From the NCBI GenBank assembly GCA_022837365.1, contig JALHHV010000011.1, positions 5,453-25,789 on the forward strand: a stretch of DNA of 20,337 bases. Reading direction: 5' to 3'. Source of the stretch: Desulfovibrio sp. (GTDB lineage: Bacteria; Desulfobacterota; Desulfovibrionia; Desulfovibrionales; Desulfovibrionaceae). Numbering within the stretch: the first letter of the stretch is position 1; every line of letters begins with the position of its first letter. A program made the translations under genes and the position numbers. Below the pieces are notes generated by a model, which saw nothing but the letters and a program-made list of their open reading frames with translations, did not search any database and was not told the DNA's origin. This document shows, piece by piece, positions 3,136 through 19,047 of this stretch.

Positions 3136-3291
3136 CGGGGCGCTTGCCCCGTTCGCTCCGGACCTCCCGCGCACGATGCCAGACATGCGCGAAACCGGAG
3201 GCGATGCCCGCGCCCGTGGGCCGGAATCCGCATTCCGGCGCGTGGAGCGCAAGGCGTGTTGCAGTGTTGACGATGCGGGTCCGTGACCCGC
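3136..3291. other. Intergenic stretch with three short hairpins
   Basis: No gene is supported between the UPF0173 stop and the GIY-YIG remnant. Three perfect hairpins are present: CGGGGC/GCCCCG (3136-3151), CCGGAAT/ATTCCGG (3221-3238) and GCGGGTC/GACCCGC (3275-3291). None is followed by a T run on either strand, so they are not classic terminators. They could stabilise or process the operon transcript. Confidence 0.35.
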
Positions 3292-3295
3292 GCAA

Positions 3296-4024
3296 TTAAC
3301 AGTATGCGCAGCCCCGGCCATCCTCGCCCATATCCAGGGTGACGGTGTCGCCGGGCTTCATGTCGAACAGCCGGCAGTCGGGGGCATGGTTGCGCAACTG
3401 CTCGCGGAAGCGCTCGGTGTTCTGTTCCAGCACCGGAAAGGTGCCCCAGTGCATGGGCACCACCGAGCGGGTGCGCAGCATGGCGCTGGCCATGGCCGCC
3501 TGCCGCGCGTCCATGGTGAAGGTGCCGCCGATGGGCAGCATGGCCAGGTCGATGGAATACAGCCGTCCCCACAGCTCCATCGACGAGAAGATGCCCGTGT
3601 CCCCGGCGTGGTAGAAGGTGAGCCCGCCCGGCATGGTCACGATGTACCCCACGGGCGCGCCCGATTCGGACGAGTGGAAGGCCTGGGTCATGGTGACGCT
3701 GACGCCCTTGTGCGTCACCGTGCCGCCGATGTTGAAGCCGATGGAGTTCAGCAGCAGGCCGGGGCGCAGCCCTTCTTCCAGCAGGCGCTGGGCCGTGCCC
3801 ACGATGCACCCCAGCAGCGCGCCGGTGGTGTTGCAGATCTGCACCGCCTGGCCCACGTGGTCGCCGTGGTCGTGGGTGACCAGCACGAGATCGGGCGGGG
3901 CGATGCCTGTCCACGGGGTGGACGCCGAGGGGTTGCCCTCGAAGAACGGGTCCACGAGCACGTTGGCTCCGTCGCAGGAAATCTGGAAATTGGCGTGGCC
4001 GTGCCATGTGAGGCTGTATTGCAT
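3296..4024 (-). CDS. UPF0173 family metal-dependent hydrolase (metallo-beta-lactamase fold)
   Basis: A 242-aa predicted cytoplasmic Zn-dependent hydrolase; its substrate is not known to me. Visible motifs are the opening WHGHANFQI (residues 7-15), the metal-binding THDHGDH (50-56), FHSSESG (116-122), YHAGDTGIF (138-146) and PMHWGTFP (190-197), in the order usual for the metallo-beta-lactamase-like UPF0173 family. Length is normal for the family, with a slight C-terminal extension ending CAYC. The ATG at 4024 is preceded by AGGCAGG. It lies 74 bp downstream of ubiX on the same strand and is probably co-transcribed with it. Confidence 0.93.
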
Positions 4025-5119: not shown

Positions 5120-5132
5120 TGTCCCGTTTCGC

Positions 5133-5209
<77 letters not shown>

Positions 5210-5214
<5 letters not shown>

Positions 5215-5253: not shown

Positions 5254-5275
5254 TGGTCCGCACGATGGTCCGCAC
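5254..5275 (+). promoter_or_regulatory. Candidate left arm-type integrase sites (tandem TGGTCCGCAC)
   Basis: Two copies of TGGTCCGCAC at 5254-5263 and 5266-5275, offset 12 bp, 40 bp inside attL. A matching pair with the same 12-bp offset and orientation occurs near attR (18857-18878). This is the layout expected of arm-type sites bound by the integrase N-terminal domain; the role is inferred. Confidence 0.5.
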
Positions 5276-5784
5276 GGATTGCGCCTTTTTGCGGCCATTG
5301 GGAGGGGAAAAGGGAACGCGCCGAGGCGGCCATGGTGGGGCTGCAATTGCCCCCGACGCACCGCCCCGGCGCGTTGCAAACAGGGTACGGATCGGGTCGA
5401 TTTTGTCAACGGGCGTATGGGGTGCGGTAGGGCATTGGGGGCTTGGGAAAGGCGATGGCGGAACGGCGTAGTGTCAATGGTTTATAGCAAACATAGCCAC
5501 ATGTTATGCGAATAGTATCTATGCTGTTGACATGTCAGCGGAAAAGTTGTTTGTGCTATAAATATAGAAAAACGATATAAGAAACATTTTTTATCCAAAA
5601 AGTACCGGGTTCTTTTGTACTGTGAATCAAAGGGTTAGGACAAAGAATTCGCAAAACACGAGTTGCAACTTACGAAATTGAGCGCCCGACTAATCCGTAT
5701 TTACAGGATGCCGCTGCATGCTCCATTTCCGGAGCAATTAGCATGGGGGTACGGCCCGGCTAGTTGCGCAGGTTTCGCGGTGGT
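5276..5784. other. Non-coding left end of the element with AT-rich island
   Basis: I support no gene here. It contains an 8-bp inverted repeat AACGCGCC (5315-5322) / GGCGCGTT (5368-5375) with GC-rich interior. From about 5470 to 5690 it contains an AT-rich stretch unlike the surrounding GC-rich sequence. Within the AT-rich part lie the palindrome TGACATGTCA (5528-5537) and a TATAAATATAG run. An undetected small RNA or regulatory region is possible. Confidence 0.4.
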
Positions 5785-5816
5785 CCGGGTGCCTGGCCTA
5801 CTGGCCGAGCACCCGG
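5785..5816 (-). terminator. Strong hairpin over the serine recombinase stop codon
   Basis: An outer stem CCGGGTGC/GCACCCGG (5785-5792 with 5809-5816) encloses an inner GGCC/GGCC stem (5795-5798 with 5803-5806). It spans the last codons and stop of the recombinase. There is no T run on either side, so it may act as a 3' stabiliser or weak terminator. Confidence 0.4.
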
Positions 5817-6367
5817 TACACGCTGCTTCGGGCCACCCCGAATCGCTTCACGATGTCGGCAACACCCATTCCTTCCGTGTGGGCCTTCCTGATCTCGTCG
5901 GCCTGTGTCTTGGCCGTGGCGGGCCGCCCCGTGGGCTTGCCGGTCTTCGTCCTGCCGGTGGACTTCATCCGCTGGATGCCCGCAAGCTGGCGTTCCTTGC
6001 GCAGATTCGTTTCAAACTCCGCGAATACCCCCAGCATTTGCAGGAAGGCGCGCCCGGCAGGCGTGGCCGTGTCTATGCGCTGGTCGAGTATTTCCAGCGC
6101 CGCGCCCTTTCCTTCCAAGGTGCCCACGATGTCGCACAGATCGCGGACATTGCGCGCCAGACGGTCCAGCTTCCAGACTACGAGGCGGTCACCTTCCCCG
6201 ATCATGTCCAGGAGAAGGCGCAGCACTTCGCGCCCCTCTGTCGTGGTGCCGCTGCGCTTCTCCTCCCGGATCACAGCGCCGGGGTATGCCGCCCGAATGG
6301 CTTCAGCCTGCATGCCGGGGTCTTGGTCAAGCGTCGAAACGCGGCAGTAAGCGAACACGGTCGGCAT
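5798..6367 (-). CDS. Serine recombinase (resolvase/invertase family)
   Basis: A 189-aa site-specific recombinase. The N-terminal catalytic domain opens FAYCRVSTLDQ with the nucleophile Ser11; KLDRLARN supplies the conserved arginines R69 and R72. The long E helix (GRAFLQMLGVFAEFETNLRK, 105-124) is followed by the Hin-type HTH (about 153-188, EIRKAHTEGMGVADIVKRFG then SSVYRVL). It is of small resolvase/invertase size, not a large serine integrase. AGGAGG lies 6 nt upstream of the ATG at 6367. Immediately upstream are three TTTTGRGAC repeats that could be its recombination site. It may resolve multimers of the element or invert a segment; no invertible gene is evident. Confidence 0.92.
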   Translation of the reverse strand: MPTVFAYCRVSTLDQDPGMQAEAIRAAYPGAVIREEKRSGTTTEGREVLRLLLDMIGEGDRLVVWKLDRLARNVRDLCDIVGTLEGKGAALEILDQRIDTATPAGRAFLQMLGVFAEFETNLRKERQLAGIQRMKSTGRTKTGKPTGRPATAKTQADEIRKAHTEGMGVADIVKRFGVARSSVYRVLGQ

Positions 6368-6955: not shown

Positions 6956-9900
6956 TTACCTCACGGTTTGCCCGGTCGCGGGCAGTCGCAGTTCAAGCAT
7001 GGCCCGGCGCTTGTCGTCCACCTCGTGGCGGATGGCCGAGTATTCCTTCAGGAGTTCGACTTTCGCAAGGCTGCGGAAGGTGTGCAGCATGTACTGGATG
7101 TACACCGCCTTCATGCCGTCCGGTCCATCGCTGCGCATGCGATAGACGCTGGACAGGGCATGCTTGCCCTCCACAACCTGGTTGAGGAAGTCCATTGCGC
7201 CAAGCTGAAACGCCGGGTGCTTGACCCCGTTCCCGGCCAGTTCGAGGAATCGGCTGTAGGCACCGGGGTGGCTGTGCAGATCGACCGGCACGCCATCAAA
7301 GGCAAGGCGGCTTCCCGGTCGGCTCACCTGCACGCCAAGGCGCATGATCTCCGCGTCAATGGGCTGGGGTTCCTGCCTGGTCGAACCCACGGGCGAGAAG
7401 GCGTCGTATGCCCAGCCCAGCCCGGAACGCCACGAGATGGGCCGCCCCCACAAGTCGCGGGCCGGGGGCAGGGTTTCGGACATGCCCGGCGTGCGGGCCT
7501 TCATGGCGTCCACCATGGACCGCACTTCGCGCAAGTACGGATCGTCGGCGCGGGCCACGGCGGCTACCCCGGCGGGCACCATGGACCCGGCCAGCTTCTG
7601 CACCCACGATTCGGCGTAGCGGTCGGGGTCGCCCATGGCCTGAAAGAATGACGACAGGCCAGAGAGATACGTCTTGCTCAAAGCGGTGTTGCCGATGGCG
7701 GCCACAGCGGCCACGGCCACGCGCTCCGCATCCTTGTCCGCCTCGCCGTCCATGTTCCGCAGGGTTTCGGCCATGTCCGCCGCAATGCCCAACTGCATGC
7801 CCAGCGGGTCAAGCCGCCCGTAGGCAAACCACCTGTCGCCAACCTTCACCGAATAGGGCTGCCAGCCAGTGCGCTTCAAGGCTTCGCGGTCACTGCCGGA
7901 CTTGGGGCCGGAACCGCTGATCTTGTCGTTCATGGCCGCGTCCATGCCCGCGAGCATCACGGCCGTGCCCATGGACATGCGGGCAAGGGCGATGTCCTTG
8001 CGGGCACCCCCGGCGGCAAGATCGGCGCGTACATGCTGCATCAGCGGGGCCAGGGGCGTGCGCTCGAAGGCAAAGCGCATGATGTTGGCCGGGGTGCGAA
8101 TGAAGGGAACCAGCACCTTGAGCAGCGGGTATTCCCCGGTCAGGCGTTGCAAGGATTTCGCCAGCGCACCGGGGGCGTTGGTGAAGGTGGAGTAGTCGGC
8201 AAAGTCCACGGCGGCGAGGCGCAAGTCCTCCGGCGGGTCGGCAAGGATGTCGGCCATGCGTTCCTTGATGCGGCCAGGTTCGACCACGCCGCCCGCCACA
8301 TCGCGCACCGCCTGCCGGTGGGCACGGGCGTGCAGTTCCATGCGGTGGGCCACGGTCTTGAAAAACTCGTCCGACGCGCCCAGTGCCCGGCCCGGCAGCC
8401 GGACAAGCGCCCCCAGGGCATCGACCACCCGGCCCGGCCACGTGTCCGACGCCATGCCGAACGCGGCGGAACTGATCGCCCCTTCGCGCGGCAGTTCCAG
8501 CTTGCCGAGGCCGTAGCCGGTTTCACCAGTGCGCAGGGCCTTGCCCGCATACCGGAACGCATCGCCAAGGCTGCCCACGAGGCCATGGAGCATCGCCAGT
8601 GCTTCGCCGGGGTCCACGCCATCCGCGTGGCCCATGAGGGCGCTGATGCCCCCGGCTGCGCGCCGTTCCGCCATTTGCTGGGCCAGCACCAGCAGGTTGC
8701 TGGTGGCGTTGACCACGTGGGTCTTAGGCGAGGAAAGCAGGGCCATCACCCACGCTTCGACCAGAGCATCACGGGTGGCTATCCCCGCCGACTTCTCCGC
8801 GAAGGCGGCAAGCTCCTTGCCCATGCCCGCTTTCGCCAGCGCGGCAACGCGGCTGGCTGCCTCGCGCGCCACGCCCGTGCCGCCGCCGGATGCCAGGGCA
8901 TCAGCCACGGCGCGGGCGCGTTCCATCGCCCCACCCGCCGGGATACGCCACGACGCCAGGGCGCGGGCCGTTTCGGTGCGCGCCGCAATGACTTCCTGCT
9001 GGATGGCGTGGTGTACCGTCAGCATCTTGCGGAACGCGAACAGGTTCACCTCGGACGGGTTGTCCGCCGCTTCGCGGGCTACCAGCGCCAGTTTGTCGGC
9101 GGATTCCGCCCACAACGTGCGCGCGGCTACGGATTGTTCCGCGTTCAGGGGGGCACCCTGCCGCCGCTGCATGAGCACGGACCAGGCGTCCTCCATGGCG
9201 GCACCGTCCGTGATCTCCCGGAAGGTCATGGTGCCACGCCGGGCCGCCTCGATGTCGCCGCGCATGGCGTCGGCCATGCCCTGCATGACGGACTTGACGT
9301 CGTCCGGGGTGTCGATGCGCGCCCAATTGACGAAGACCCCGCCGGATTCCTGTGAGGTGCCTTTCGCCACGGCGGCGGGCGTGGCGCTGTCCAGTGCGCC
9401 GGGGGCTTCGGGGGGTATCGCGGATGCCTCTGCGCGGGGCGTGGGTGGGGCTTCGGCTGCCCCTTCCTGGATCACGGAAGGCGTGTCCTTTGCCCCGGTG
9501 GGGGCACTCCCTTCGCTATGGACAGGTGCGGGTCGGTCGGCTGTGGTCAGTGGCGGGGCGGCCTCGTCGCCCAGCATGTGGAACGCATCGCCTTCCACGC
9601 GGGGGGCGTTGGCGGCTTCCGCCACCTGCCGGGCGAGGGCCTGTTCGCTGCCCTGGGCGGCGGCTTCGCGGCGGGCGATGCCCCAGGCGCGCACGGCCCG
9701 CAGGCCGTTCAAGGCCGCATCCGTGGCCATGCCAAGGCCCAGCCCTTCCAAGGCCAGCTTGGCGCGGCTTTCGGCGGCGGTGTCGCCTTCGCGCGATGCA
9801 AGGAATTCCGTCACCGGGTTGGCGAGGCCCGGGTATTGCTGGACGAGGGAGGCAAGCCGTTCCTGCGCCTCGTCCATGAAGGCGAAGTCGGCCACCGCCC

Positions 9901-10600
9901 CGCGCGTGGCTGCCGCCGCCACGGTGCCCGCACGCCCCATGCCAGCCATGGCCTGCACCGGCTTAAGCCTGCCTGCCACCGTAAAGCCCACCAGCCATTG
10001 CGCCACGTCGCGCACAAGGCCGCCCGTGGTGGATTCCGGGCGGTCCAGTTCGGGGGCCTGGGGCTGTTCCTCGCGGGGCACTTCGCCCTGTTGCCATGAC
10101 AGCGCCGGGCCATCGCCGGACAGGTTTACGCGCAGGTATCCGTCAGGTCCGACGCCATGGCGGCGCAGTGCCGCGCCCACGTCGTAAACGGCCTGTACCG
10201 CCTCGTTGACTGCGCCGGGTACCGCACCGGCCAGGGCGCGGGGCGTTTCCACAACCCCCCGCCCGATATCGCTGGCGATGCGCCCCACCACGGAGCCCGC
10301 TGCCTCTTGCGGCTGCCCGGCGGGCGGGGATTGGTCAGTGATGGGGGCACCCGGAGCGGCGGGCTGCCCGCTGGCAGTGCTGCCGCGCCTGCGGTCGCGC
10401 ACGCGGCGCAACATGTCTTCGGCGGCAAGCGCGGCCTGCGCTTCCTGCCGCCGCTGGGGCACTTGGGGGGCAAGGTCGTCGGGATCGTTGACCGGGGGCA
10501 GGGGGCGGGCACCCACGCCGTCGGCGGGACCATCGGCAGTGCCACCGGAAACGGCGGGGAAACGCTCCGGTAACGTTTCAGTAACGGCGGTCTGACTCAT
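6956..10600 (-). CDS. Large phage ejection / polyvalent-type protein
   Basis: A 1214-aa protein resembling the very long phage proteins described as internal virion, ejection or large polyvalent proteins, which enter the cell with the DNA. The N-terminus (1-100) and a linker at 340-415 are Ala/Pro-rich and disordered. Recognisable blocks are LLSSPKTHVVNATSN (621-635) and VPFIRTPANIMRF (831-843), followed by FERTPLAPLM. The second half has several Ala/Gly-rich helices (for example 875-890, 961-985) that could contact membranes. I see no lysozyme, transglycosylase or nuclease motif. AGGAG is 6 nt before the ATG at 10600. It follows the coiled-coil gene after 8 nt. Finding it without capsid or terminase genes is the oddity. 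Family-level call is moderate; exact role is inference. Confidence 0.75.
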   Translation of the reverse strand: MSQTAVTETLPERFPAVSGGTADGPADGVGARPLPPVNDPDDLAPQVPQRRQEAQAALAAEDMLRRVRDRRRGSTASGQPAAPGAPITDQSPPAGQPQEAAGSVVGRIASDIGRGVVETPRALAGAVPGAVNEAVQAVYDVGAALRRHGVGPDGYLRVNLSGDGPALSWQQGEVPREEQPQAPELDRPESTTGGLVRDVAQWLVGFTVAGRLKPVQAMAGMGRAGTVAAAATRGAVADFAFMDEAQERLASLVQQYPGLANPVTEFLASREGDTAAESRAKLALEGLGLGMATDAALNGLRAVRAWGIARREAAAQGSEQALARQVAEAANAPRVEGDAFHMLGDEAAPPLTTADRPAPVHSEGSAPTGAKDTPSVIQEGAAEAPPTPRAEASAIPPEAPGALDSATPAAVAKGTSQESGGVFVNWARIDTPDDVKSVMQGMADAMRGDIEAARRGTMTFREITDGAAMEDAWSVLMQRRQGAPLNAEQSVAARTLWAESADKLALVAREAADNPSEVNLFAFRKMLTVHHAIQQEVIAARTETARALASWRIPAGGAMERARAVADALASGGGTGVAREAASRVAALAKAGMGKELAAFAEKSAGIATRDALVEAWVMALLSSPKTHVVNATSNLLVLAQQMAERRAAGGISALMGHADGVDPGEALAMLHGLVGSLGDAFRYAGKALRTGETGYGLGKLELPREGAISSAAFGMASDTWPGRVVDALGALVRLPGRALGASDEFFKTVAHRMELHARAHRQAVRDVAGGVVEPGRIKERMADILADPPEDLRLAAVDFADYSTFTNAPGALAKSLQRLTGEYPLLKVLVPFIRTPANIMRFAFERTPLAPLMQHVRADLAAGGARKDIALARMSMGTAVMLAGMDAAMNDKISGSGPKSGSDREALKRTGWQPYSVKVGDRWFAYGRLDPLGMQLGIAADMAETLRNMDGEADKDAERVAVAAVAAIGNTALSKTYLSGLSSFFQAMGDPDRYAESWVQKLAGSMVPAGVAAVARADDPYLREVRSMVDAMKARTPGMSETLPPARDLWGRPISWRSGLGWAYDAFSPVGSTRQEPQPIDAEIMRLGVQVSRPGSRLAFDGVPVDLHSHPGAYSRFLELAGNGVKHPAFQLGAMDFLNQVVEGKHALSSVYRMRSDGPDGMKAVYIQYMLHTFRSLAKVELLKEYSAIRHEVDDKRRAMLELRLPATGQTVR

Positions 10601-12580: not shown

Positions 12581-13261
12581 TCACTCCTTTGCGGTTGCCG
12601 CAGGGCGTCCACGCCGTCTGCGGCTGGTTACTGGTGTGGGCGTGCCGGAAAGCATGGCGGCAGCGGCCCGGTGAACAACACGTTCTTCCATGTCGTGCTG
12701 CATGAAGGTCAGGTAGTGCAGGGTGCTGTCTACGCTGCGGTGGCCCAACATGCGTTGGACGAACTTGAGGTCGGCATGATGGTCGCCCGTGGCGGTTTCC
12801 CGCAGGATGGTCACGGCGAACGTCTTGCGGCAGCCGTGGGAACCGTGGCCGCGCCCGATGCCTGCCGCCCGGTAGGCGCGGGAGAGCACCCGCCACGCGG
12901 CACAGGTGGTGAGAGGACCACCTCGGCGGGTGTTCGGGAACAAGTGGCACAAGGGGGCCTTGAAGCCGTGGGCTTGTAGCCAGGCCACAAGATCACGGAT
13001 GGCGGCGCGCAGTTCCGGCGGGGCCGCGATGGTGCGCGAGGCGAGTCCGCCTTTCATGTGGGTTTTGGAGACGGTGATGCGTTCGCGGGGGGTGCCGTTG
13101 TTGGCTACGTCGTACACACGCAGGGAGAGGGCTTCTGACAGGCGAAAGCCGGTTGTGAGGAGCAGCAGGTACAGTGCGCGGTTTCGTGCCTTGTAGGGGC
13201 CGCGAAACGCGCGCAGCACGTCGGCCACCTGCTGGGGAGAAAATGGGCGCATACCGGCCAC
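12581..13261 (-). CDS. Catalytic-domain-only tyrosine recombinase
   Basis: A 226-aa tyrosine recombinase with all catalytic residues: R40 in TTGFRLSEAL, K70 in SKTHMKGG, H142 and R145 in HGCRKTF, H174 in MLGHRS and nucleophile Y183 in STLHYL. It lacks the N-terminal core-binding (SAM-like) domain and any arm-binding domain; only about 20 residues precede the catalytic fold. A basic tail (SRRRRGRP) ends it. The start is GTG at 13261 (ATG at 13252 is an alternative), 15 nt after the replication gene stop. It is in mid-operon, not at an element end, so it is probably not the integrase. Dimer resolution or a replication-linked role is possible. Confidence 0.88.
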   Translation of the reverse strand: MAGMRPFSPQQVADVLRAFRGPYKARNRALYLLLLTTGFRLSEALSLRVYDVANNGTPRERITVSKTHMKGGLASRTIAAPPELRAAIRDLVAWLQAHGFKAPLCHLFPNTRRGGPLTTCAAWRVLSRAYRAAGIGRGHGSHGCRKTFAVTILRETATGDHHADLKFVQRMLGHRSVDSTLHYLTFMQHDMEERVVHRAAAAMLSGTPTPVTSRRRRGRPAATAKE

Positions 13262-13276: not shown

Positions 13277-14284
13277 CTACACCCGGCCCGGAACGCTGAC
13301 GGGCGTGGTTGTGGCGGGGGTGTCCGCTGGCGGCATGTCGCCCGTTGTCACGGAAGGGGCTTCGGAGGGGCTTGCGGAGGGCTTGGCAAGGGCTTGGGCT
13401 GTGTCCCGCCACATGCCTTCGGTCAGGAACCGGGCGAGACCCGGCGCGAATCCGTGGCGCCAGCGGCGTGCAGCAATCGTGGCCTGTGCAGCGGCCAACA
13501 CCTCTGCATCGCCAGGATAGTTAGCCTGTTCGCGCAAGGCCACCCAGGCTGGCAAGCCTTCGTACATCCCCTCTTTGCGAGCGCCCTTGTCCCATAAGGC
13601 GCGCAGGGCTTCAAAATTCTGCATGCCCTCGCTTTTGTCCGTGGTGCCGGTGCTGGCCGGGGACATCGCGGGGGAAGGCTTGCGGCTTTCACCTCTCTTG
13701 CCTTTCACCTCACAGGCGGCCCGAAGGGCCTCTTCCTTTCCCGGCACCTCGCGCGCGCCCGCGCGGTCTCCGTTCACGGTAGTACCTATGGTAAGGGGAT
13801 TTTCTTCTTCTTTTTCTTCTTTCTTCTCCTTCTTCTTATTCGGGGAAGGGTGAGGCCATGCTTCCCGGAAGGCTTTCCGGAAGCCTTCGGACAAGCCTTC
13901 CGTGTAGTCTTTAACAGCTTGGGAAATTTCATCCTTCAGCGGGCATTCCGGCAGTTCGGCAAAGCCGCCAACCCATGAGCGGATGACGTTGGGGGACTCC
14001 GGAGCGTTGTGCGTGAGGAACGCAGGGAGCCAGATCAGGGAGGCCCTTTCGTCATACTTCGCCCACCCTTTGCCCAAGGCTTCCGACAAGGCTTCGCGGA
14101 AGGCTTCAACGGTCCAGGACAGTTCACATGCGAGGCCAGGCACGTTTGCCCGAAGCGCACCCACCGATGTGGTGTGCGGGTGGGTGGACAGGACGAAATA
14201 CAACAGCTTTGCCGCATCGCTGAACCCGCGAAAGTCGCTGTCGTTCCAAATGGAGATGGGGATTTTCCGATACCGGACGGCCAT
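13277..14284 (-). CDS. Phage-type replication protein (replisome organiser-like)
   Basis: A 335-aa protein with the layout of phage replication initiators. The N-terminal winged-helix-like region begins IPISIWNDSDFRGFSDAAKL (9-28). A disordered linker includes a Lys/Glu run KKEKKEEKEEEN (150-161). The C-terminal segment WRHGFAPGLARFLTEGMWRD (275-294) resembles the end of O-like proteins (P..LARFL..G.W.D). Four-residue repeats (EAFR EALS EALG; EGLS EGFR KAFR) are encoded by DNA with exact 12-bp period, suggesting origin iterons inside the gene, as in lambda O. It follows the AlpA-like gene by 8 nt. No helicase or primase motif is seen, so it would recruit host machinery. Confidence 0.7.
   Translation of the reverse strand: MAVRYRKIPISIWNDSDFRGFSDAAKLLYFVLSTHPHTTSVGALRANVPGLACELSWTVEAFREALSEALGKGWAKYDERASLIWLPAFLTHNAPESPNVIRSWVGGFAELPECPLKDEISQAVKDYTEGLSEGFRKAFREAWPHPSPNKKKEKKEEKEEENPLTIGTTVNGDRAGAREVPGKEEALRAACEVKGKRGESRKPSPAMSPASTGTTDKSEGMQNFEALRALWDKGARKEGMYEGLPAWVALREQANYPGDAEVLAAAQATIAARRWRHGFAPGLARFLTEGMWRDTAQALAKPSASPSEAPSVTTGDMPPADTPATTTPVSVPGRV
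13799..13842 (-). repeat. TTC/TTCTT low-complexity tract
   Basis: On the plus strand almost pure TTC/TTCTT/TTT; on the coding strand GAA/AAG-rich, giving the Lys/Glu linker of the replication protein. Such a tract could vary in length. Confidence 0.6.
13869..13900. repeat. 12-bp-period AAGCCTTC repeats in the replication gene (cluster 2)
   Basis: AAGGCTTT at 13869, AAGCCTTC at 13881 and 13893: exact 12-bp spacing, first copy inverted. They encode the EGLS-EGFR-KAFR peptide repeat. Confidence 0.6.
14076..14107. repeat. 12-bp-period AAGGCTTC repeats in the replication gene (cluster 1)
   Basis: AAGGCTTC at 14076, 14088 and 14100: exact 12-bp spacing, same orientation. They encode EAFR-EALS-EALG. 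A third, looser GGGCTTGCGGAG-type series with similar period lies at about 13351-13399. Candidate iterons. Confidence 0.6.
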
Positions 14285-14292
14285 CGTTAGCC

Positions 14293-14490
14293 CTACACCT
14301 CGCGCGGCGTAACAACACGATCCGCGATGTAGAGTTCAATGTCCCCTTGGCGGTATCGAATGGTTCTGCCGTCCCTTACGAATTGCGGCGGTTTTCGCCA
14401 GTATCGTCTGCTGCGAAGCGTGTGGACAGAGAGCCCCAGGATTTCAGCGGCTTCAAATTCGGTGAGCAGTTTTTCCGGCTTCTTCGACAT
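14293..14490 (-). CDS. AlpA/MerR-like helix-turn-helix protein
   Basis: A 65-aa DNA-binding protein. LLTEFEAAEILGLSVHTLRS (8-27) is a MerR/AlpA-type HTH, followed by the wing-like RKPPQFVRDGRTIRYRQGDI (32-51). This is the small family that includes phage P4-type regulators and excisionases (recombination directionality factors). AGGAGG lies 5 nt before the ATG at 14490. It is the first gene of the long minus-strand operon, just downstream of the GGGACA repeat cluster, which it may bind to control replication and excision. A host-independent switch for excision is inference. Confidence 0.82.
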   Translation of the reverse strand: MSKKPEKLLTEFEAAEILGLSVHTLRSRRYWRKPPQFVRDGRTIRYRQGDIELYIADRVVTPREV

Positions 14491-14535
14491 GTCTCCTCCT
14501 TTCATGTGGTGTGAGGTCTTGTGGTAAGCGTACCC

Positions 14536-14662
14536 TGTCCCCGTGGGCGGGACACAAGGGGGGACATGGGGGGACAACAACTTTTTTTGATCGGGGATTC
14601 TGGGCGATTACGCTTGTCCCCTTGTTGTCCCTTTTGTGTCCCTCCCAAGGGACAGGGGGACA
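14536..14662. repeat. Nine-copy GGGACA repeat cluster (candidate origin/operator)
   Basis: In 127 bp: GGGACA at 14549, 14561, 14571, 14649 and 14657; TGTCCC at 14536, 14615, 14626 and 14637. The left and right halves form a long imperfect inverted repeat (GGGcGGGACACAA versus GGGaGGGACACAA), around a centre with a T7 run (14582-14588). It lies upstream of the AlpA-like/replication operon. No coding sequence is supported between 14491 and 14779. Binding sites for the AlpA-like or replication protein are likely. Confidence 0.7.
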
Positions 14663-14779
14663 TGTGTGTTGTCAGCGCTAGTTTCTTGTGCTGTGTGCTG
14701 AACAACCAGGGTTCGAAAAATTGCGAGCCAGTTGCCCGGAAAGCGCGGCATGCGCCCCGCACGAGGTGTTCGAGCCACC

Positions 14780-15016
14780 TCACTTTTTGGTGTGCATTGC
14801 ATCCACACCTCTGTCGATGAAATCCAACTTTTCCCGGCAGAAGTCGTAGATGTGCGCAAGTCCTTCCCGACCTTCTATAGAAAGCCGAAGTTCAGCTTCA
14901 TCTTCGGCAATGGTGACTTCCCACATGAAGGAAAGTATCTGGCGTAGATGGAGAATTGCGGTGGATACGTCGTTATAGCTGGGGGATTCGGCATTGTTGG
15001 CGGCGGACATGGACAC
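14780..15016 (-). CDS. Small helical hypothetical protein
   Basis: A 78-aa protein containing YNDVSTAILHLRQILSFMWE (13-32) and REGLAHIYDFCREKLDFID (53-71), ending MHTKK. I do not recognise a function. I prefer the GTG at 15016 because AAAGGAG (15024-15030) stands 7 nt upstream; ATG at 15010 is a close alternative. The frame is open to an ATG at 15232, which would overlap the repressor gene's 3' end by 11 bp and add a 72-residue Arg/Ala/Pro-rich segment of uncertain reality. It is the last gene before the GGGACA cluster and is probably transcribed with the repressor candidate. Confidence 0.6.
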   Translation of the reverse strand: MSMSAANNAESPSYNDVSTAILHLRQILSFMWEVTIAEDEAELRLSIEGREGLAHIYDFCREKLDFIDRGVDAMHTKK

Positions 15017-15221
15017 GGCGGCACTCCTTTCGGCTGTATGGGGCGGCTGTTCCGCCGGTTGGTCACCAGTACGGACAGGGCGCAGGTATGCCGCCATCTG
15101 GGCTAGGGTGGCTTTCAGACAGCAGCGGCGCGCTTGGTCGGCGGTGCATGATGTGGTGCCCCCTTGGGGGCGTGAGTGCTGGGGAGATGACGTGGCGGCG
15201 CGCCTGCGGGTGCGTGCTTTG

Positions 15222-15821
15222 CTACGAGGCATGGCGAAGCCCCCTGCGCGGGACGATGGACAAAGCCGGACGCGGCGTATCGGTGGGTGTGGTTTGGCCC
15301 CCGCCCCAGATAAGCGACAGGCGATCGCGGCGGCTGGGGTAGTGTTTTAGGAAAAGTTCCTGGTGTAGTGACCGCTCGCGCTTGGGCATGTCGAGGATGC
15401 GACGAACTTGCGCGGGCGTGTAATTGCGTGCGGAAAGAAATTCTTCTTCTGTGTTTTCAGGAACTGGCAGCGCTTCATCTGCAAGATTTGGGTAGTAATA
15501 GTTTGGCGTCCATCCTTCTGTGTAGTCGCGTTCGGCGCGCGCAAAGAATGCTTGTACTGAAATGCCCAAAGTCTCGCATACGGATTTCATCACCTGAAAG
15601 CGGCACAGTTCGCTTTCTCCGGTCAACAGTTTGAGAATGCGCTTTTCTCCAAGTGCCGTTTTTCCCGGCCAGAGTTTTGTGACCAAGGCCCGGCGTTCCG
15701 TGGCATCAAAATATGCGTCCATGTATTTGCGAATTAGCAATAAATATGCGCGCCTTGGATGGAGCTTGTTTGTGCGAAAGTCTGGAACGGGAAAGGACGG
15801 AACGTCTTTGCGGCAGTACAT
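15222..15821 (-). CDS. Candidate phage repressor / XRE-like regulator
   Basis: A 199-aa protein with a possible XRE-like HTH at about 40-95 (LVTKLWPGKTALGEKRILKL, then KSVCETLGISVQAFF). The rest (100-199) is not a recognisable peptidase or oligomerisation domain, so if it is a repressor it is not LexA-like self-cleaving. I chose the ATG at 15821 with AGAGG about 7 nt upstream; the frame opens to 15986, but that extension would run through the operators. It is divergent from the Cro-like gene across a 164-bp region with three operator-like sites, the typical lysogeny-switch arrangement. Confidence 0.65.
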   Translation of the reverse strand: MYCRKDVPSFPVPDFRTNKLHPRRAYLLLIRKYMDAYFDATERRALVTKLWPGKTALGEKRILKLLTGESELCRFQVMKSVCETLGISVQAFFARAERDYTEGWTPNYYYPNLADEALPVPENTEEEFLSARNYTPAQVRRILDMPKRERSLHQELFLKHYPSRRDRLSLIWGGGQTTPTDTPRPALSIVPRRGLRHAS

Positions 15822-15916
15822 GGCGGACCTCTTAGGCTTGAGGGGTCTCGGCAGTTGTGGCGTTTGCTGCCGCCCGATGCGGAGTCGTGGCCTGTGCTGC
15901 CGTGGTCGTTTTTGTG

Positions 15917-15985
15917 GTGACATATCACCCCACAATTGCCAAGAAAAAAGTGATACATCACCCCAAATATGAGGGGTGATGCTCA
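15917..15985. promoter_or_regulatory. Operator cluster between divergent regulators
   Basis: GTGA-N4-TCAC at 15917-15928 and 15950-15961, both continuing as TCACCCC. A third, reversed site reads GGGGTGA then TGC-TCA (15973-15985) and overlaps the ribosome-binding site of the Cro-like gene. Starts are 33 and 26 bp apart. Three sites between divergent genes recall lambda-type operators. Confidence 0.65.
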
Positions 15986-16204
15986 ATGTTTCATAGCAAT
16001 GTTAAGGTGATAATGGAGGAGCGAGGCTTGACCATTCGAGGAATGGAGGCTGTGACGGGCCTTTCGACTCAAACGGTGAGGCGTGCCCGTGGCCCGATGA
16101 TTGAGCGTTGTACCCTGGACACGTTGGCCCGGATCGCGGCGGCGCTGGGCGTACGGGTGAAGGACCTGTTCAGCGAAGAGGGCGAACCTGGCCCGGAGCA
16201 GTAG
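15986..16204 (+). CDS. Cro/C1-like XRE family regulator
   Basis: A 72-aa small HTH protein: KVIMEERGLTIRGMEAVTG (7-25), then LSTQTVRRARG as the recognition region, and LDTLARIAAALGVRVKDLF (44-62), the usual XRE ending. It is the only plus-strand gene in the element. GAGGGG lies upstream, inside the third operator, so binding there would block both transcription and translation. It probably opposes the divergent 199-aa regulator in the decision between quiescence and excision/replication. Confidence 0.85.
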   Translation: MFHSNVKVIMEERGLTIRGMEAVTGLSTQTVRRARGPMIERCTLDTLARIAAALGVRVKDLFSEEGEPGPEQ

Positions 16205-16327: not shown

Positions 16328-16663
16328 TTACGCGGCAAGAAAACGGGTGGGCGGGCAGTTCAACGCCTCGGCCAGCTTGCGGGCGTTCTGCTTGCCGATG
16401 GGGCGACGGCTGTTTTCCATCTCGCTGATGTGCCGCTGCGGAATGCCCGTGCGGCGCGAAAGTTCGGCCTGGGTGATATCCTCGCGGTAGCGCATGCCGC
16501 GCAGGATGGCAGCCGGGGACATATCCAGAACTTCTTCCGGGGCCACGGAACCCTGCACCGTGCAGCCCTTATCACGCAGAAAGGCCATGACGCTGGCCTG
16601 CATGTCCACCGGGCACGTCACGGTAAACGTTTCAGTAGGGTGCTTTCTCGTGGGTGCCAGCAT
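16328..16663 (-). CDS. HigA-type XRE antitoxin
   Basis: A 111-aa protein: N-terminal part 1-45, then a canonical XRE HTH at 50-108 (REDITQAELSRRTGIPQRHI, SEMENSRRPIGKQNARKLAE). It would neutralise the toxin encoded upstream and repress the operon by binding the promoter palindrome at 16922-16938. GGAGGT is 5 nt before the ATG at 16663. The gene overlaps the toxin's 3' end by 32 bp, so toxin precedes antitoxin, the HigBA-type order. Such modules stabilise mobile elements or limit phage growth. Confidence 0.88.
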   Translation of the reverse strand: MLAPTRKHPTETFTVTCPVDMQASVMAFLRDKGCTVQGSVAPEEVLDMSPAAILRGMRYREDITQAELSRRTGIPQRHISEMENSRRPIGKQNARKLAEALNCPPTRFLAA

Positions 16664-16910
16664 AGGTCACCTCCACTTCCTTGGCTTTCTTGTCCTTCTC
16701 TTCCCACACGGCCACATAGGTAGGCTTGCCTTTCTTGAGGTGGCAGTGGTGCCTGTCGTCACCCAGCTTGCTGTAGTTGGGCCAATCGCCGCGTACCGGG
16801 CCAGCCGCGCGGATGTCCGCGATAAGCGCGGCCACGGCGTCCTGTACCCTTTTGGGTAGCCTGGCAATGCCCTTCGCCGCCTTGGCGCTGATGGTGACGA
16901 TCCAGTTCAT
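16632..16910 (-). CDS. RelE/ParE-superfamily (HigB-like) toxin
   Basis: A 92-aa toxin, probably an mRNA interferase of the RelE/HigB group. It contains LPKRVQDAVAALIADI (22-37), GPVRGDWPNYSKLGDDRHHC (41-60), KKGKPTYVAVWE and the family-typical ending VTYAGTHEKAPY. ATG at 16910 fits the usual N-terminus (MNWIVTISAKAAKG). There is no good ribosome-binding site, and a TATATT box lies only 8-13 bp upstream, so the message may be nearly leaderless; a TTG at 16928 would be inside the operator. The following antitoxin has a strong ribosome-binding site, consistent with less toxin than antitoxin. Confidence 0.88.
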   Translation of the reverse strand: MNWIVTISAKAAKGIARLPKRVQDAVAALIADIRAAGPVRGDWPNYSKLGDDRHHCHLKKGKPTYVAVWEEKDKKAKEVEVTYAGTHEKAPY

Positions 16911-16918
16911 GCGGGAGA

Positions 16919-16945
16919 AATATACCAAAAAATGGTATTGGTCAA
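16919..16945 (-). promoter_or_regulatory. Toxin-antitoxin promoter with operator palindrome
   Basis: Palindrome ATACCA-AAAAA-TGGTAT (16922-16938) overlaps a minus-strand -10 box TATATT (16924-16919) and sits against TTGACC (16945-16940) as -35, with a 15-bp spacer. Probable autorepression site. Confidence 0.6.
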
Positions 16946-16952
16946 GGTTGGC

Positions 16953-17672
16953 TTAGTCAATCCCGTGTTGCTGGCGCAGGCGCACTGACTTTTGCTTGGC
17001 TGCCGCCTTGGTAATGCTTTCCTTGGAGAACAACAGCAAGCCGCAAGCCTCGTCGCCATAGGGCAACCCCCTGCGCTTTAACTCCGGGCGCAGGAACCGG
17101 AGTATTTTTGCATCGTCTGCGCCTTCGTTTCGCATGCGGGTAACGCACATTTCCGGCGTTTCGTCCTGCTGCCCATCTCCCCCTGGAATGGCATCCGTTT
17201 GTGTCTCGCCGGATATGGCCCATAGATCGGCTATCACTGCTTCGTCCCACGCACAGGCAGCAGCGATTTCATGGGCGGTAAATAGTGCGGATGCTAGACT
17301 TGGAAAGAGGAATTCGCTGCCGGTTTCAGCATTGCCAAATAGCCACAGCGACACACGGGTTGTTGCTCGAAGGAGGTCTTCGCGTTCGTCGTCAATGACG
17401 GCAATGTTGCGTAACCATGCACAACCCAAGATGCCTTCTCCGCACATGGTTAGGTCGGCTTTTATAGTTTTGTCTTGAAGCTGATCCGCAACGTTGAGGG
17501 CGTTGCACAAGACCTCCGTGATCGCTTGGTGGTGTTGGTCTGCTAGGTGCTCGGCATCACATCCAAGTATGTTAGCGTGGAGCATCCAGGTAAACACATC
17601 ACCTTCTGTCCAGCCAGTAACCTGTGCCGCCTCTTTTCCGGTGAACAGTCGCTTGGGCAATTCAGGCACCAT
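16953..17672 (-). CDS. Hypothetical protein coupled to the integrase
   Basis: A 239-aa mostly helical protein I do not recognise. Residues 9-32 (RLFTGKEAAQVTGWTEGDVF) look like a short HTH. The middle (100-150) is hydrophobic, with helices such as SLWLFGNAETGSEFLF; these are not clear membrane spans. The C-terminus is basic (KAAAKQKSVRLRQQHGID). GGAGGAAAG precedes the ATG at 17672, which overlaps the integrase stop by 11 bp, so the two are co-translated. This position suits an excision cofactor or accessory/defence gene, but there is no direct evidence. Its stretches CCAAGTATG and TTTTATAG are more AT-rich than neighbouring genes. Confidence 0.72.
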   Translation of the reverse strand: MVPELPKRLFTGKEAAQVTGWTEGDVFTWMLHANILGCDAEHLADQHHQAITEVLCNALNVADQLQDKTIKADLTMCGEGILGCAWLRNIAVIDDEREDLLRATTRVSLWLFGNAETGSEFLFPSLASALFTAHEIAAACAWDEAVIADLWAISGETQTDAIPGGDGQQDETPEMCVTRMRNEGADDAKILRFLRPELKRRGLPYGDEACGLLLFSKESITKAAAKQKSVRLRQQHGID

Positions 17673-18840
17673 GACTTTCCTCCGGCGTGGTGGGGTTCTT
17701 CTCGTCTGGCCCGGCTTCGCCGGTCGCAAAGAGGGCGCACGCGACGGATGATCCCCGCTGTAGGGCTTCGTCCGCGAGATGGGCGTACCGCTGTGTCATT
17801 TGGGCGCTGCCGTGGGTCAGCAGCTTTTGCAGGGTGTACAAGTCCACGTTGCCCGACGAGGCGAGGTGCGAGGCGAAGGTATGGCGCAGGCCGTGCAGCG
17901 GGCGGAAGTCGTCCGGCAGCCCGGCGGCTTTCTTGATCCGGTGCGTCGGGCGGTTCAGGTCGCTCCGGCGGCCACCGCCCCTGCCGGGGAAGATGAACGG
18001 GCTTTGCGTGCGGGGTATGGTCAGCAGAATGGCGCGGGCCGCATCGTTCATGGGGATGCGCTCGGTGCGGCCTTTCTTGGCCGTGGCCCCGCGCAGGGTG
18101 ATGAACCCTCTCTCGAAGTCGCAGTCTTCCCATGTCAGGCCCAGCAGCGCCCCACGGCGCATGCCGGTAGCCAGCGCCAGGCGGATGGCGGATGCGGCCA
18201 CCTGGTCGTGATCCTCGTCCAGCGCCTTGAGCAAGGCGGCCACCTGTTCCGGGGTGAGACATTCCGTCTTGGTGTTGTCCACCTGGGGCATCTCGAAGTG
18301 CAGGCGCGAGGGACCCGGCATGCGGACAAGTCCGCGCATCACGGCAAAGCGAATGATGCGCCGCAGCAGGGCCAGCACGTGCTTGACGGTCTGCGGGCTT
18401 TTGCCGTCCTTTTGAAGCCGGCCGCGGAGCCGGTCCACATCCTGGGTGGTGATGTCGTCCGGGGTCTTGTCGCTGAATTCGGGTTCGATGAAGAGACGGT
18501 AACGGGAGGCGTCCGAGGCAGCGGAGCTATTCTCCGCGCGGGCTTCGTGGTAGTGTGCCCACAGCTTGGCGATGGTGGGGCGGCTGGCAAGTTCCTGGGC
18601 GCGTTCCCGCCGTTGCCGGTTGGAAAGTTCCTTGCCCCTGGCGCGGTCTTCCCTGATTTGCGCGGCCTTGCGGGCGGTCATGCCCTCGCTTTCGCGGCCC
18701 ACGGGTTCACGCGTTTCCTTGGTGCCGCGCCCGCCCGTCCGGTAGCGGACATAGTAGATGCGCTCAAGCCCGTCGCCGGAAAGACGCCGAACCATGGAGT
18801 AGGTGACGCCGGGGTACTTGGTGGGGGTGTGTCTGGGCAT
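17662..18840 (-). CDS. int: Tyrosine integrase of the element
   Basis: A 392-aa phage-type integrase, the likely enzyme for tRNA-Arg insertion. It has an N-terminal arm-binding-like region (1-60), a core-binding helical domain (about 85-185, AKLWAHYHEA...TVKHVLALLRRIIRFA) and a catalytic domain with R228 (TGMRRGALLGL), K255/K256, H316 and R319 (LHGLRHTF), H343 (LLTHGS) and nucleophile Y352 (TQRYAHL). ATG at 18840 is chosen; upstream in-frame ATGs fall in the repeat region beside attR, and the ribosome-binding site (GGGATTCGGA) is moderate. It is transcribed away from attR. Candidate arm sites lie 17-38 bp upstream of its start, so it may repress itself. Confidence 0.93.
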   Translation of the reverse strand: MPRHTPTKYPGVTYSMVRRLSGDGLERIYYVRYRTGGRGTKETREPVGRESEGMTARKAAQIREDRARGKELSNRQRRERAQELASRPTIAKLWAHYHEARAENSSAASDASRYRLFIEPEFSDKTPDDITTQDVDRLRGRLQKDGKSPQTVKHVLALLRRIIRFAVMRGLVRMPGPSRLHFEMPQVDNTKTECLTPEQVAALLKALDEDHDQVAASAIRLALATGMRRGALLGLTWEDCDFERGFITLRGATAKKGRTERIPMNDAARAILLTIPRTQSPFIFPGRGGGRRSDLNRPTHRIKKAAGLPDDFRPLHGLRHTFASHLASSGNVDLYTLQKLLTHGSAQMTQRYAHLADEALQRGSSVACALFATGEAGPDEKNPTTPEESHGA

Positions 18841-18856
18841 TCCGAATCCCGCAGCT

Positions 18857-18878
18857 TGTTCCGCACCATGGTCCGCAC
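18857..18878 (+). promoter_or_regulatory. Candidate right arm-type integrase sites
   Basis: TGTTCCGCAC (18857-18866, one mismatch) and TGGTCCGCAC (18869-18878), offset 12 bp, same orientation as the left pair at 5254-5275. They lie 116 bp from the attR core and just upstream of the integrase start. Confidence 0.5.
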
Positions 18879-18883
18879 ACAGG

Positions 18884-18977
18884 ATAGAAAACGGCATGGC
18901 TAGGAAGTAGAGTAGAGATGTCGAACCTCTTCTATCACCCAGCAAAATGAAAGAAAATAGAAAACGCCATGACTAGG
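18884..18977 (+). repeat. Two 21-bp imperfect direct repeats beside attR
   Basis: ATAGAAAACGGCATGG plus CTAGG at 18884-18904 and ATAGAAAACGCCATGA plus CTAGG at 18957-18977: 19 of 21 positions identical, 73 bp apart. They flank an AT-rich stretch between the integrase and attR and are candidate excisionase or integrase binding sites. Confidence 0.6.
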
Positions 18978-18994
18978 CAATAATGGGCGCATTG

Positions 18995-19047
18995 GGCCTC
19001 CGGAGCCAAAGGCCACAGGTTCGAATCCTGTATTGCCCACCACGCGA
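18995..19047 (+). repeat. attR: 53-bp attachment core, truncated tRNA-Arg copy
   Basis: Exact copy of 5162-5214. The tRNA 5' half is missing, so this is not a functional tRNA. Chromosomal sequence resumes at 19048. Confidence 0.95.

Follow-up and report, generated by a model that had tools for sequence, protein, structure and literature searches.

The window, which is the whole stretch of 20,337 bp analysed here, carries nine copies of GGGACA disposed as a dyad just before an alpA-like gene and a replication gene (rep) of a phage-derived integrated element. In its architecture the array resembles phage arrays known to serve control or origin functions. Our tentative preference, held at less than even confidence, is that it is an operator with multiple protein-binding sites, located in the promoter region of a putative alpA-rep operon. 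The preliminary description had proposed a replication origin or a multi-site operator, which is partly supported, comparison with other elements lending something to each of the two. The operator is put slightly ahead of the origin on two grounds: the element has no recognised helicase of the kind linked to such arrays, and an alpA-rep promoter would be expected at the place of the array, although the scan found none. The features directly concerned are the following.

14536..14662, no strand assigned: GGGACA/TGTCCC array, site order - + + + then - - - + + on the two sides of a dyad axis at 14595.5
14293..14490, minus strand: AlpA-like small HTH protein of 65 aa (Pfam HTH_17, E 1.4e-6; excisionase/regulator phrog_66, 9.9e-7)
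13277..14284, minus strand: lambda-O/DnaD-like replication protein (Rep) of 335 aa (phrog_1701, 9.6e-15; phrog_3171, 2.7e-8)
14724..14738, minus strand: terminator-like hairpin separating the array from the upstream ORF, by consensus scan only

The nine exact copies in 127 bp reported beforehand are all present, at 14536(-), 14549(+), 14561(+) and 14571(+) in the left half and at 14615(-), 14626(-), 14637(-), 14649(+) and 14657(+) in the right half, with a run of T (14582-14588) near the centre separating four from five as described. Eight of them form four opposite-strand pairs that share the axis 14595.5 in a register kept within 1 bp (p = 0.009 on shuffling spacing and orientation 2000 times), leaving the site at 14657 unpaired. 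The inner triples have spacings of 12, 10 and 11, 11 bp, so that neighbouring short sites of this control region are separated by roughly a turn of the helix; they are direct within each triple and inverted between halves. The symmetry first called "mirror" is real but the word is loose, the geometry being that of a dyad, and the long imperfect inverted repeat was recovered by a repeat finder with 38-nt arms that are 74% complementary. The chance rate of about one GGGACA per 2 kb also agrees with the count in the window (19 copies, 10 of them outside the array), as does the position upstream of both genes, 45 bp from the alpA-like start codon (14490) and 251 bp from that of rep (14284). No other 6-mer of the window clusters as strongly as GGGACA, the runner-up reaching 5 copies. 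When any 6-mer was scored in 200 first-order simulations of the window, the best one reached 7 copies once, 6 once, 5 in 35 cases, 4 in 162 and 3 in one; 2000 local-gap simulations gave a maximum of 5 copies, reached in 3.

The element of 13.8 kb is bounded by a 53-bp perfect direct repeat in tRNA-Arg(CCG). Its ends and the genes to the right of the array are as follows.

5162..5214, plus strand: left att copy, a 53-bp perfect direct repeat overlapping tRNA-Arg(CCG) (5133-5209)
18995..19047, plus strand: right att copy, the 53-bp repeat, adjoined by the integrase
17662-18945, minus strand: tyrosine integrase, beside the right att
15986..16204, plus strand: Cro/C1-type HTH protein (HTH_26, E 3.9e-11)
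15222..15821, minus strand: candidate CI-like regulator, with a weak HTH_26 match (E 0.016) below the cut-off and none in PHROGs
14780..15232, minus strand: 150-aa ORF without family match, whose end lies 117 bp from the array

Leftward from mid-element the order is CI-like candidate, 150-aa ORF, terminator-like hairpin, array, alpA and rep; a second tyrosine recombinase and then larger genes lie beyond rep. This recombinase (12581-13261) sits next to rep, and a DNA invertase/resolvase gene (5798-6367) occupies the left end of the element. The Cro-like gene is flanked by palindrome-like GGTGA..TCACC sites (15916-15981), read by eye, whose sequence differs from GGGACA. At 16328-16928 an HTH_3 protein adjoins a small protein that resembles RelE/ParE-type toxins, and the two are possibly a toxin-antitoxin pair. 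The product of 6956-10600 resembles internal virion proteins (phrog_6651, E 7.9e-54), and a query of 900 residues aligns at 30% with its counterpart in Desulfovibrio phage ProddE, internal virion protein D; the segment 6956-12195 carries this podophage internal virion protein D-like gene and, by position, that for protein C. Capsid, portal and terminase were not recognised among the scanned ORFs of the element. The longest contig measures 11.9-15.3 kb for five of the six closest Rep homologues and for 8 of 50 homologues of the internal virion protein D-like protein, a size that would suit a satellite unit. PICMI satellites carry int, alpA and prim in 6.1 kb (PMC10803314). The element is likewise a small integrated island that has an integrase, AlpA and a replication gene; it differs by a lambda-O-like rep in place of a primase, by its 13.8 kb and by its internal virion protein genes. 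DNA of close relatives was not found in the collections searched, which may omit very near records; two weak HTH loci that came up were left aside.

Acting as an operator, the array would take up a small element-encoded DNA-binding protein cooperatively, at three helically spaced sites per half and on both sides of the dyad. The AlpA-like protein is the first candidate binder. Occupancy would set transcription of alpA and rep, presumably as a single operon, and with it the switch to excision and replication, the sign of this regulation being presumptive. The place of the array, between the terminator-like hairpin and the alpA start codon, favours this role, as does the probable separate origin within rep suggested by the sequence repeats there (see below). 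The consensus scan gave 6 terminator-like sites in the 2-kb region vs 2.7 in shuffles; the scan for sigma-70-like promoters found none, which counts against the operator.

The layout has a precedent by analogy in the operators of phage 186 Apl. Seven such operators, 6-bp direct repeats that follow one another at roughly the helical pitch, lie between pR and pL, and Apl binds only where at least three operators are present (PMC7498355). The array resembles them in its 6-bp sites, their spacing of about one helical turn, its place in an early control region and the small element-encoded DNA-binding protein, which is here a candidate. Unlike the seven direct repeats of pR-pL, it consists of two inverted triples with outer sites that make a dyad. 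Apl is both recombination directionality factor and switch regulator. The array has no copy at att: a single GGGACA (5120-5125, outside the element) occurs within 100 bp of either att copy, and this lack of a second site set also speaks against the operator. The repeats resembling arm sites at att are instead GGTCCGCAC. Pairs of repeats of the GGTCCGCAC type, 12 bp apart, occur near both att copies (5254-5276 and 18849-18878) and are likely integrase arm sites.

The predicted fold of the AlpA-like protein also favours an operator. Its AF2 model, built from a three-row alignment, has a pLDDT of 81 and gives in Foldseek against PDB a best match to RdfS (8dgl, E 5.4e-3) followed by BldC (6ama, E 0.04), no match falling below E 1e-3. 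Both folds are therefore matched at modest E-values and the likeness is one of predicted structure. On DNA, RdfS and BldC both assemble in head-to-tail rows, and RdfS does so on its own promoter as well; the sites of RdfS show no clear motif, and BldC recognises AATTXXXX(C) (PMC5859096, PMC11963761). A further hint is that P0121 (AlpA) and P0005 (Rep) have the same longest contig, of 14,169 bp, from which alpA and rep may be linked in one relative; this may count for the operator.

Smaller GGGACA arrays before other alpA-like or HTH genes are counted for the operator. In a survey of 82 loci (including overlapping fetches) with 108 GGGACA clusters, five elements have an alpA-like gene within 350 bp after a cluster, namely the window, L115, L122, L164 and L165, the last being the same site as L153. 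In L174 an array precedes an HTH gene, judged by eye, that the alpA model misses. All five arrays outside the window are smaller than its own; those of L164, L165 and L174 have direct repeats only, and that of L115 has two opposite-strand pairs, no more than chance. L165 also bears another word, CATTGCC, in seven copies at the 3' terminus of the long ORF that follows, which we guess to be its rep gene. L123 has two GGGACA in the 260 bp before its alpA-like ORF. In 12 other array-bearing elements no GGGACA was found in the 260 bp before the longest start of the alpA-like or HTH ORF, eleven of these ORFs being assigned by model, some weakly, and that of L111 by eye.

Wider sampling speaks against the operator. 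Conservation of the repeats in related elements, put forward earlier as a check, failed near 40 more distant AlpA homologues, which have at most 2 GGGACA per 200 bp; they were chosen by alignment and represent 40 of the 49 rows after five query members, the nine skipped being mostly look-alikes, and two of the loci (L406, L416) offer less than 320 bp upstream. The claim that AlpA is a proven binder of the array was dropped on account of these 40. Among 27 PF05930 alpA loci (30 sampled, 3 too short) GGGACA is never one of the top two clustered upstream words, and words cluster there no more than in 108 control segments; L216 has five AGGACA and L220 five GTGACA. None of 155 GGGACA arrays precedes an alpA-like ORF in 120 viral loci among the matches listed, where 3 such ORFs were found. 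That the arrays of L164, L165 and L174 are direct and that of L115 has chance-level pairs, and that array bearers are scattered on the tree, weighs in the same direction: the array-linked alpA-like proteins do not cluster (5 changes, as low in 110 of 500 shuffles, on few columns). A seemingly decisive AlpA clade (L118, L122, L123, L131; array beside helicase) was discarded, its rows having been pre-chosen for GGGACA. In one genus of the family, (C)GGACAA repeats of 3-5 copies occur about -170 or -360 of alpA genes (L410, L412, L431, L433, L436, L443). Were the array indeed an operator, its clean nine-site dyad would lend itself to testing how wHTH regulators of mobile elements cooperate.

The repeats that accompany Rep are of another kind. 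Rep has no Pfam match; its lambda-O/DnaD-like part is N-terminal, and residues 5-146 share 40% identity with "DNA replication protein O" of Citrobacter phage Chris1. Two groups of sites lie inside its gene.

14076..14106, no strand assigned: three AAGGCTT sites with 12-bp spacing, inside rep
13869..13899, no strand assigned: three more AAGGCTT/AAGCCTT sites with 12-bp spacing, inside rep

A polypurine/polypyrimidine tract (about 13800-13842) lies near the second group. In phage lambda the origin iterons are inside the O gene, and the element is alike in having a rep with an O-like N-terminal part, in-gene iterons and a purine tract; a lambda-type origin would sit at 13800-14106, not at the GGGACA array. 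Over the 1 kb that begins at the match start, the leading repeated 7-mer of 31 viral rep homologues, chosen by alignment, is AAGSCTT. At least three copies per 160 bp are found in 22 of the 31 regions vs none of 31 controls, and at least two in 29 vs 2 controls. GGGACA never exceeds 3 copies per 130 bp in these 31 viral loci and 19 genomic ones. The in-gene iterons of Rep are thus AAGSCTT sites, and GGGACA as its cognate word was ruled out by AAGSCTT conservation together with the scarcity of GGGACA in rep homologue loci. Because AAGSCTT repeats are conserved in rep homologues and GGGACA is sparse there, the origin of the element is most simply placed in rep, probably at the in-gene sites near the polypurine tract. 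Lambda-O-like rep genes of the family (L004, L007, L016, L071-L101) also have in-gene AAGSCTT repeats, often in 12-bp steps and numbering up to 11 (L016), which are probable origins.

The main competitor, a real possibility to which we give somewhat less credence, is that the array consists of origin-type iterons for a replication initiator or helicase, either as a second origin or with the helicase gene lost or supplied from elsewhere. Twenty of 25 distinct dense GGGACA arrays (at least 8 copies per 260 bp; 23 of 29 rows before duplicates L133, L150, L159 and L161 were merged) in the fetched loci of the family lie within 400 bp of a helicase or primase ORF, a set gathered through GGGACA patterns, one requiring an inverted copy, with some query helicases drawn from the same loci and the L102 and L104 primases named by eye. 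The neighbours scanned with Pfam (L111, L112, L115, L117, L118, L119, L123, L177) have DUF927, AAA_25, Toprim or Prim-Pol. The window is one of the five dense arrays without a nearby helicase or primase, two of which (L132, L173) are near a contig end. Of 288 family genomes, 31 contain the pattern whose third site is inverted (68 matches vs 15 for the reversed pattern) and 59 that of three direct sites; the latter means little in the genus of the window, because it is rarer there than its reversed control (26 vs 52). In viral matches, a helicase or primase ORF similar to the queries lies within 400 bp of 8 of 40 dense arrays, among the matches listed, and many matches resemble coding tandem repeats (e.g. 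L246, L253, L264, L340).

A sample picked by DUF927 alone extends this association. Of its best-scoring 30 loci, which include several near-copies such as L199-L202, 22 bear a 6-mer in 6-14 copies some 850 bp beyond the domain. These arrays (L183-L212) are mostly near locus position 3150-3400, at about the 3' end of the gene where checked, and a dense array of a single word is likewise what the window has. The word is GGGACA in 6 of the 30 loci and elsewhere GGTGACA, GGCGACA, GGTTACA, CGTTGC, GCCCGA, GCCCAC or AAAGCA; GGGACA as a universal phage iteron was accordingly rejected as a product of search bias. The dyad plan of the window is common to L118 and L177 (p = 0.0005 each), L119 (0.0025) and L271 (0.003). 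Against this, p falls below 0.05 in only 6 of 27 other arrays tested, a set that excludes the alpA-upstream arrays and L170 and includes L271 and L341, picked for looking symmetric.

The iteron arrays of DUF927/AAA_25 phage helicases are dense, some with GGGACA and the same dyad plan. The array of the window departs from them in preceding alpA-rep with no adjoining helicase, in lying away from the 3' end of any helicase or primase gene, and in belonging to an element whose rep carries conserved repeats of a different word. Among the scanned ORFs of the element neither a helicase nor an initiator of this kind was recognised, and DUF927 had no match in the genome of the window (589 contigs, 75% complete) or in seven other genomes of the genus. 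No work linking GGGACA repeats to replication origins was found in the literature, judged by title. If the array is an origin, the element would have two origin types or borrow the helicase of another phage. The helicase-linked arrays, with their position near the gene 3' end and a word that varies per element, offer a ready set for matching helicases to iterons.

Three further explanations are improbable. The array could be the remnant of an older replication module without present role, in keeping with the mosaic nature of an element whose internal virion protein genes come with no capsid, portal or terminase recognised among the scanned ORFs; nine exact hexamers and the 1-bp register of four pairs are unlikely to persist without use, unless recently acquired. 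With an equally slight chance, the array could mimic an origin: a satellite-like element with a lambda-O-type origin and the dyad array of a helicase phage would recruit the helicase of a co-resident phage, or a helper initiator would switch on alpA-rep. RNA control of the attenuator or antisense-target kind is known from phage P4 immunity, and the alpA strand of 14491-14720 does fold into a long stem (-84.2 kcal/mol, z = -4.5), but that the array acts as RNA, as a hairpin, attenuator or antisense target in the alpA-rep leader, is the least probable of all, given that any inverted array would fold likewise, that this strand has no U run after the stem, that Rfam at gathering score matches the tRNA alone and that regular hexamers 10-12 bp apart suggest protein binding.

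GGGACA repeats are also found just before or across integrase starts (L166-L169, L134/L180, L182, L120), mostly direct and mixed in L120; those before integrase genes are perhaps arm-type sites. Short hairpins such as CCCCTTTAGGGG or CCTATAGG are flanked by, or lie near, GGGACA pairs in several phage arrays, those of L102, L103, L104, L273, L275, L344 and L353.
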